NCBI GenBank assembly: GCA_022823225.1
Contig: JAJDXM010000055.1
Location: forward strand, 62,001-126,000
Direction of reading: 5' to 3'
Source: Gemmatimonadota bacterium
GTDB taxonomy: Bacteria > Gemmatimonadota > Gemmatimonadetes > Longimicrobiales > Gaopeijiaceae
DNA length: 64,000 bases
Part shown: one piece after another, positions 32,837 through 42,948 of the stretch
How positions within the stretch are numbered: position 1 is the stretch's first letter
Layout of the letters: each line of letters starts with the position of its first letter
Notes under the pieces: model-generated
Told to the model about the DNA's origin: nothing
Databases searched by the model: none
The model's input: only the letters and a program-made list of their open reading frames with translations
Translations under genes and position numbers: made by a program

Positions 32837-33460
32837 TCAGTCCAGGGCTTCCAGCACCGCCAGAATGTCCTGGTTGGTGGGCCGCACGCGGTAGTCCGTC
32901 TCCACGAAGCGGTACCTGACGACCCCCTCCTTGTCGATCACGTAGGTGGCGGGATGGGGAAGCGGGCGGTTCGGCGGTGCGTCCGCGTTGAAGAGGCCGT
33001 AGCGGTCGATCACGGCGTGATCCGGGTCCGACAGCATGATGAAGTCCGGGGCGACGCCGTCGGTCGCCTGCACCCGGTCGATCATCCGCTTCATGCCTTC
33101 CTCGTCATCGACCGACACGGTGACGATCTCGGTATCGTCCTGCAGCGCATCCGGGAGAAGGGCTCTCAGCTCCACGAGCTGACCGGCGCAGTACGGTCAC
33201 CAGTGGCCGCGGTAGAAGACCAGGACCACGTTCTTGTCGCCGCGGAAGCTCGCCAGCTCCACGGGGCCGCGGTCGTAGGACGCCAGGGTGAAGAGCGGCG
33301 CCTCGTCACCGACGGAGACGCGCTCCAGATCGGTGGCCGGCAGGTCGTGCCCATCCGCGGGACCGAGGGTCTGGGCGCCAGCGGGGACCGCCGCAAGGAG
33401 GAGGACGGCGAGGAGCGCGAAGGGGAGCGCGCGCCGGTGGAGCAGGATTGCAGGATTCAT
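32837..33460 (-). CDS. Secreted peroxiredoxin-like selenoprotein (in-frame UGA at residue 88)
   Basis: Read from the ATG at 33460, the frame encodes a signal peptide ending AGAQ and an AhpC/TSA thioredoxin fold: VGDEAPLFTLASY, VELASFRGDKNVVLVFYRGHW. A TGA follows at 33199-33197, and the same frame continues PYCAGQLVELRALLP to a stop at 32837. The TGA replaces the first Cys of the CPYC redox motif. The remaining 119 codons keep the family (SVDDEEGMKRM, PATYVIDKEGVVRYRFVE). With Sec at 88 the product has 207 residues, a normal length. A hairpin 14 nt after TGA fits a bacterial SECIS. A nonsense mutation is the alternative. The expected role is peroxide reduction in the periplasm. Confidence 0.82.
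33166..33182 (-). promoter_or_regulatory. Candidate bacterial SECIS hairpin in the first selenoprotein gene
   Basis: On the mRNA, TCAGCTC and GAGCTGA pair perfectly (7 bp) around the loop GTG. The stem starts 14 nt and the loop 21 nt after the UGA, within the range known for bacterial SECIS elements, and the loop begins with G. Confidence 0.6.
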
Positions 33461-41813: not shown

Positions 41814-42344
41814 GTGAAGAAAGCCGTGTTGGCAGCCGTCGTCATCGCCGCGCCGCTCATCGTGCCAGTGCCCGCGGTGGCCCAGGAAACCGGTGCCGAA
41901 CTGGGTCTGCCCCCCGGGACCACCGCTCCGGACGCCCAGGTCGAGGACCTGGAGGGCAACGCGGTCTCGCTCCTCGAGGTGGTGGGGGGCGGCCCGGCCC
42001 TGATCGAGTTCTGGGCGTCGTGGTGCGAGCAGTGCGAGCTGCTCCAGCCCGAGATCGACGCCGTGCAGGAGCGGTTCGGGGCGCGGGTGAAGGTCGTGGC
42101 GGTCGCCGTGGCGGTTTCGCAGTCGGTGCGCCGGGTGCGGCGTCACGTAGACCGGCACGAGCCCGGGTACACCTTCGTATACGACGCAAAAGGCGAGGCC
42201 GTGAGAGCCTACGAAGCCCTCACGACCTCAATCGTGGTCCTCATCGACGGCGAGGGGCGCGTCGTTTCCACCGGCGTGGGGCCGAAGCAGGGGCTTGTGG
42301 ACGCGGTGGAGGCAATGCTGGGAGACGGCGTCTCGCCCGGCTGA
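41814..42344 (+). CDS. TlpA-like periplasmic thioredoxin
   Basis: I use the GTG at 41814, which follows GAGGTGG. The GTG at 41802 overlapping the previous stop is an alternative. The 176-residue protein has a signal peptide ending AVAQ and a thioredoxin fold with the redox motif W-C-E-Q-C in EFWASWCEQCELLQPEID. It should be kept reduced by the CcdA-type protein encoded directly upstream. It ends 25 bp before the convergent selenoperoxiredoxin gene, so the three may form one reducing system. Confidence 0.85.
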   Translation: MKKAVLAAVVIAAPLIVPVPAVAQETGAELGLPPGTTAPDAQVEDLEGNAVSLLEVVGGGPALIEFWASWCEQCELLQPEIDAVQERFGARVKVVAVAVAVSQSVRRVRRHVDRHEPGYTFVYDAKGEAVRAYEALTTSIVVLIDGEGRVVSTGVGPKQGLVDAVEAMLGDGVSPG

Positions 42345-42369: not shown

Positions 42370-42948
42370 CTATCCCTCCTCCGGCTCCGGCGTCACCTCA
42401 TCGATGATGGCGCCCAGCTCCTCGTAGGCGGTCGGGTCCGTCTGCCTGAACTGGGGTATCACCCCGGCGACGCGGCCGTCCGGGCCGACCACGATGACGG
42501 CGCGGCTTCCCACCATCCCGTTGTCCCGCATCGATCCGCCGAACGCCGCGAAGGCGCCGTCATCGGTGCCGAACAGGTACGGGAAGTCCTCGTCCTTGAG
42601 CCATGAGGCACCCTCTTCCGGCGAGTCGTTCGAGATCGCCATGAGCACGACGTTGCGGCCTTCGTTGAACAGCTCTGCGTACTGATCACGGTACGCTCTC
42701 ATTTGAACCGTTCAGCCACGCGTCCTGACCCTGAAGAAGAACGCGAGGACTACCGTCTCGCCGCGGTAGTCGCTCAGCCGGATCGGGTCCCGGAGGACGC
42801 CGTGCCGGGTGGCGCCGGTGAGTTCGAAGTCGGGGGCCATCGCCCCGACCTCGATCAGGCCGTCGCCAGGTTCCTGTGCCGCCGTGCCGGTCGGCGCGGC
42901 AAGCCCGACTATGGCGACCAGCGCCGCCGCTATCAGAAGTTTGCGCAT
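42370..42948 (-). CDS. Secreted peroxiredoxin selenoprotein (in-frame UGA at residue 79)
   Basis: From ATG 42948 the frame gives a signal peptide (to GTAAQ), then VGAMAPDFELTGATRHG, YRGETVVLAFFFRVRTRG and a TGA at 42714-42712. The frame continues TVQMRAYRDQYAELFNEG and runs to a stop at 42370. In peroxiredoxins the TGA position is the peroxidatic cysteine of the TPGCT motif, here TRG-Sec-T. The second part keeps DFPYLFGTDDGAFAAFGG and AVIVVGPDGRVAGVIPQF. With Sec the product has 192 residues. A 6-bp hairpin starts 15 nt after UGA. A nonsense mutation cannot be excluded, but the exact position argues against it. Role: peroxide reduction beside the CcdA-TlpA pair. Confidence 0.85.
42677..42696 (-). 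promoter_or_regulatory. Candidate bacterial SECIS hairpin in the second selenoprotein gene
   Basis: On the mRNA, GCGTAC pairs with GTACGC (6 bp) around the 8-nt loop CGTGATCA. The loop starts 21 nt after the UGA, the same distance as in the first gene, and has G at its second position. Confidence 0.6.

Follow-up and report, generated by a model that had tools for sequence, protein, structure and literature searches.

An apparently exported peroxiredoxin of Gemmatimonadota with a predicted selenocysteine at the peroxidatic position

Introduction

Peroxiredoxins with a TxxU motif are already an established kind of selenoprotein. They are described as Prx, with the TxxU motif and COG1225 (PMC1088965; Table 1 of PMC13188914), the published motif being PxxxTxxU. 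From the Sargasso Sea, 43 such genes were reported (PMC1088965), and PrxU of Eubacterium acidaminophilum is cited in PMC13188914 as a verified selenocysteine (Sec) peroxiredoxin. The protein analysed here is encoded in a 64,000-nucleotide stretch of a Gemmatimonadota genome (hereafter the window) and resembles the Sargasso Sea proteins in its PF00578 fold, the Sec at the peroxidatic position of TxxU and the bacterial SECIS downstream. Judged by the published motif PxxxTxxU rather than by sequences, it differs from them in that Phe, Tyr or Ile replaces the Pro in 130 of 136 Sec forms. Compared with their description, the family of the window protein is also apparently exported, has no second Cys, occurs class-wide in Gemmatimonadota and carries a single, nearly invariant 20-nt hairpin. 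Like PrxU (NF040737, peroxi_PrxU), the window protein belongs to the AhpC/TSA proteins and would have Sec as its peroxidatic residue; membership of the PrxU family was rejected because of a score of 34.9 bits against a cut-off of 270. The nearest proteins in fold and sequence class are the BCP/PrxQ thiol peroxidases, such as Sulfolobus Bcp4 (3hjp), although the window protein reaches 42 bits with the BCP model NF006960, for which the cut-off is 140. Unlike the window protein, BCP uses Cys instead of Sec, often together with a resolving Cys, and is cytoplasmic.

We consider it very probable that the gene encodes an exported peroxiredoxin with Sec as the peroxidatic residue, the UGA being decoded through SelB and a hairpin. 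The argument draws on sequence evidence, namely the UGA itself, the Sec machinery, a conserved and covarying SECIS, orthology, a predicted peroxiredoxin fold, the lack of any other Cys and a conserved DsbD/TlpA neighbourhood. What is new is the Phe or Tyr in place of the Pro of PxxxTxxC in 129 of 136 Sec forms, the absence of a resolving Cys, the apparent export and the class-wide presence. On balance, we favour the view that these proteins constitute a subfamily of exported 1-Sec peroxiredoxins that has not been described before and is ancient in Gemmatimonadota. In this view, Sec made it possible to lose a near-universal active-site Pro, and the Pro accompanies the return to Cys, which took place in one lineage at least and probably in two. 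The SECIS would consist of a nearly frozen 20-nt hairpin plus a flanking pair with alternating Watson-Crick and homopurine (A.A, G.G) states. A literature search over titles and abstracts of open-licence papers found no report of selenoproteins in Gemmatimonadota, and a full-text search for selenium in papers on this phylum returned no relevant mention.

The gene and its in-frame TGA

The gene occupies positions 42370-42948 on the reverse strand, with the ATG start codon at 42948 and the TAG terminator ending at 42370. Its sole in-frame TGA lies at 42714-42712, precisely where the sequence-only reading had placed the codon that splits a peroxiredoxin gene. The reverse strand translates as MRKLLIAAALVAIVGLAAPTGTAAQEPGDGLIEVGAMAPDFELTGATRHGVLRDPIRLSDYRGETVVLAFFFRVRTRG-U-TVQMRAYRDQYAELF..., up to the TAG, and, with the UGA read through as in its orthologues, gives a protein of 192 residues in which the TGA corresponds to Sec79 in the context VRTRG-U-TVQMRAYRDQY. 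The joined protein matches the AhpC-TSA profile PF00578 with 71.4 bits against a gathering score of 26, whereas the two halves alone score 22.6 and 28.9 bits; both sides of the codon thus keep the family, as had been claimed from the sequence alone. Automatic annotation probably presents the gene as two fragments. Rfam families gave no match in the window at gathering scores, and no tRNA gene was found there.

Homologues were searched for in 121 genomes of the same family-level group and in a sample of the phylum. The codon at the position of Sec79 is TGA in 136 and TGC in 20 of the 156 aligned homologues, which represent several family-level groups of one class, and nothing else occurs there. 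One of the 20 Cys rows (L244) is a typical BCP and merely a distant homologue. The alignment of the in-frame UGA with either UGA or Cys is what is expected of a selenoprotein gene. The TGA sits at the peroxidatic position (TRG-U-TVQM).

Fold, active site and export

The AlphaFold2 model has a predicted peroxiredoxin fold of moderate quality (mean pLDDT 72.8, falling below 50 at residues 76-78, which belong to the active site). The assignment to the AhpC/TSA family is based on both the profile score and the fold of the model. Residue 79 is located near the start of the long helix 78-94, and the best PDB matches of the model are BCP/PrxQ and Prx1. T76, position 79 and R149 are invariant in alignment A1, and F72 stands in the position of the Pro. 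The N terminus (MRKLLIAAALVAIVGLAAPTGTAAQ, 42874-42948 on the reverse strand) resembles an export signal, and relatives have a similarly hydrophobic N terminus. The protein therefore looks exported and would be periplasmic.

The Pro position of PxxxTxxC is occupied by Phe in 117, Tyr in 12, Ile in 1 and Pro in 6 of the 136 Sec forms, compared with Pro in 20 of 20 Cys homologues. The mature part contains no other Cys in 133 of the 136 Sec forms; the remaining three (L125, L129 and L130) have a longer C terminus whose last residue is their single additional Cys (AGDC, TAGC) and might act as the resolving residue. Because the window protein itself has no other Cys and hence lacks the resolving residue of 2-Cys peroxiredoxins, its sequence identifies it as a 1-Sec peroxiredoxin. 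The label "TPGC-type" given in the sequence-only reading is accordingly loose: the protein is a peroxiredoxin, but it has Phe where PxxxTxxC has Pro and is devoid of a resolving Cys.

The same two features raise the question of whether the Sec protein could have a role other than that of a peroxidase, such as thiol oxidation or redox sensing. The replacement of the Pro by Phe, Tyr or Ile in 130 of 136 Sec forms would fit such a function. However, the Arg and the fold persist, as does the Thr of TxxU in all but a few homologue rows, and the Pro is retained in six Sec forms. Moreover, 1-Cys peroxiredoxins are active without a resolving Cys. We therefore regard a non-peroxidase function as unlikely and infer peroxidase activity for the window protein from its sequence.

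The UGA could also be a regulated stop, in which case the functional form would be a short exported product of 78 residues or the product of a downstream restart, with only occasional Sec insertion. There is an in-frame ATG at codon +4, and bacteria do not insert Sec with full efficiency. Against this, the C-terminal half shows strong conservation, with Arg149 and the C-terminal helix among the conserved parts, and a restart product would be devoid of the exported N terminus and the first beta strands. This makes a regulated stop very improbable as compared with a full-length peroxiredoxin containing Sec.

Selenocysteine machinery

The source genome (4.19 Mb in 97 contigs, 96% complete) contains all the components demanded of a genome with a bacterial selenoprotein gene: tRNA-Sec (79.6 bits; ARAGORN anticodon tca), SelA (470 bits), SelB (307 bits) and SelD (381 bits), the last with an in-frame TGA of its own in the context GAGUGCK. 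The search for selenium machinery proposed in the sequence-only reading thus had a positive outcome. Among genomes of the same family, a strong tRNA-Sec was found in 79 of 85 with the TGA gene and was absent from 26 of 36 without it (Fisher P = 6e-13, which is only a guide because related genomes are not independent). Since all six remaining genomes with the TGA gene have SelA, their missing tRNA-Sec is probably a gap in the draft assembly. The family's only genome with a Cys form (G114) has neither tRNA-Sec nor SelA. SelA is also absent from three Cys-only genomes of one genus (G138, G156 and G182) and from G132; two other genomes (G126 and G187) have Cys forms, yet they kept SelA.

The SECIS hairpin

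The core hairpin GCGUAC-CGUGAUCA-GUACGC, with a 6-bp stem and an 8-nt loop, is located at 42677-42696 on the reverse strand. It begins 16 nt after the UGA, with the loop following at 21 nt, in agreement with the hairpin described from the sequence alone. According to the published model, a bacterial SECIS has a loop of 3-9 nt, a stem of 4-16 bp, a G in the first two loop positions, a distance of 16-37 nt from the UGA and an MFE <= -7.5 (PMC13188914). The hairpin passes this model with an 8-nt loop CGUGAUCA (CG..., with G second), 6 bp, 21 nt and -8.5 kcal/mol, which answers the call for a SECIS prediction. The fold from the UGA onwards has an energy of -18.5 kcal/mol, as against a mean of -10.5 for shuffled sequences (z = -3.5). 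A longer lower helix of 10 bp that includes the UGA can be drawn in the window's own sequence; it was rejected as part of the SECIS, not being conserved.

Nucleotides 19-38, counted from the U of the UGA, read GCGUACCGUGAUCAGUACGC in 128 of the 136 Sec genes, an identity that extends to the silent codon positions. Complete pairing of the stem, with all six pairs, is possible in 135 of 136 Sec genes versus 1 of 20 Cys homologues, in which the hairpin is eroded. Codons +5 to +12 are frozen on synonyms seldom used in the rest of the gene (CGT 98% versus 15%, GAT 98% versus 27%, GCA 88% versus 8% and AGA 100% versus 4%). Because these codons hold to one synonym where others are used elsewhere in the gene, their sequences indicate that the constraint acts on the RNA and not on the protein. 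The Cys gene L132 retains MRAYRDQY, but its codons after the Met are CGT GCC TAC CGC GAC CAG TAT. The codons just 5' of the UGA (CGT GGC, 42715-42720 on the reverse strand) are also strongly biased in the family, with 93% and 94% compared with 15% and 48% elsewhere, and a partner with which they could pair was not found.

As the 6-bp stem barely varies, covariation was assessed on the flanking pair formed by the third bases of codon +5 (42697, nt 18 from the U of the UGA, beside the stem) and codon +12 (42676, nt 39), both on the reverse strand. These two bases changed together on 15 branches of the protein tree, whereas about 1.7 such double changes would be expected if they were independent (19 x 23 / 260; P = 2e-15). 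Seven of the 15 are changes from U-A to C-G, and some are switches from A.A to G.G, which is not Watson-Crick. The pair swings between Watson-Crick and A.A or G.G, and A.G almost never occurs. No coupling was detected among the other third-position pairs tested. This covariation set is deep and clean, and defines the SECIS well enough to test the features that are read by SelB.

If a suppressor tRNA or an altered code made the UGA encode Trp, Cys or Arg instead, the outcome would appear identical to Sec at the protein level. Nevertheless, TGA is an ordinary stop in the window, where it ends 12 of 27 long open reading frames, the gene follows tRNA-Sec and SelA across genomes, the SECIS-type hairpin is conserved in TGA genes only, and the alternative residue in homologues is always Cys. 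We judge such decoding to be hardly credible and infer that Sec is incorporated at the UGA.

Orthologues and loss of selenocysteine

The TGA form occurs in about 85 of the 121 genomes of the family-level group and, in the phylum sample, in further families of the class. The named matches are Gemmatimonadota MAGs, including Longimicrobiales and Candidatus Palauibacter. None of the homologues is truncated at the TGA; all stay in frame up to a common end, their protein sequence is conserved, and the Sec protein is nearly frozen around the codon (RTRGUTVQMRAYRDQY). Although the two halves give separate open reading frames in the standard reading, a pseudogene or a sequencing or assembly error, with the TGA as a random nonsense mutation in a peroxiredoxin that uses Cys, is refuted by TGA at the same codon in 136 of 156 homologues from several family-level groups, which is far beyond chance, and by a protein conserved on both sides without decay. 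The selenoprotein interpretation had been staked on the presence of Sec machinery, the absence of reads with a sense codon and homologues that continue beyond the TGA. It is supported on each point; on the second, the evidence is that TGA recurs in other families of the class and, within the family, in about 85 genomes that were assembled separately. An additional "TAG" in homologues from one genus (g2) was ruled out as a second recoding event, being an ordinary terminator shortly before the end of the query.

In the tree built with the Sec/Cys and Pro-position columns masked, a single Sec clade without any Cys row was rejected (AU P = 0.004). The Cys rows L132 and L215 fall within a Sec clade with a support of 100/98, so that Sec was lost at least once and probably twice. 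Both have the Pro, and the tree allows that it was either regained or kept in these lineages. Two genomes (G172 and G146) carry a Sec copy and a Cys copy side by side (L221 and L229). The family is thus a natural experiment: both Sec and Cys occur, the active-site Pro may be present or absent, and the forms sometimes lie in tandem in one genome. The reason why an enzyme keeps Sec, be it speed or resistance to over-oxidation, is therefore directly testable. The family also implies widespread use of selenium in a phylum for which the literature search found no selenoprotein report. A search of plasmids returned merely distant homologues with less than 41% identity. Three contigs titled Gammaproteobacteria (L161, L165 and L166) have the gene with about 70% identity, among Gemmatimonadota relatives; they are probably mislabelled.

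Gene neighbourhood and proposed mechanism

Two conserved neighbours lie on the forward strand: a DsbD/CcdA-type transmembrane electron carrier (PF02683, 41077-41805), a probable electron source, and an exported TlpA/thioredoxin-like protein with WCEQC (41814-42344, the start being approximate), a probable reductant, which is arranged tail to tail with the peroxiredoxin gene. A TlpA relative is near, convergent with and downstream of the peroxiredoxin gene in 67 of 87 loci of the family; across the class, it is near in 36 of 67 loci and convergent in 32. From gene position, the chances are about even that the DsbD/TlpA pair is the electron source of the peroxiredoxin. The electron-donor step is weak because the pair is convergent and not co-transcribed with the peroxiredoxin gene.

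In the proposed mechanism, SelB, recruited by the hairpin just 3' of the UGA, would bring Sec-tRNA-Sec to the ribosome. The selenolate at the N terminus of helix 2 would attack the peroxide, and the resulting selenenic acid, with no resolving Cys in the chain, would be reduced by an external thiol, most likely that of the neighbouring TlpA-like protein. DsbD would then recharge the TlpA-like protein from the cytoplasm.

Other TGA-bearing peroxiredoxin genes in the genome

Three of the 24 AhpC/TSA genes in the genome have one in-frame TGA, and two of these three are inside the window. The other gene in the window, also pointed out in the sequence-only reading, is located at 32912-33313 on the reverse strand and encodes a Prx-like UxxC protein (VFYRGHW-U-PYC). 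It has the same fold and would likewise contain Sec, but a Cys follows the Sec (WUPYC), unlike in the protein of 42370-42948, which has no second Cys. Downstream of the UGA of this gene, CAGCUC-GUG-GAGCUG may form a short hairpin, whose loop would lie about 21 nt from that codon. The third (L057, G000:C61:48828-49268) is on the same contig outside the window and encodes FFRGRW-U-PYC.
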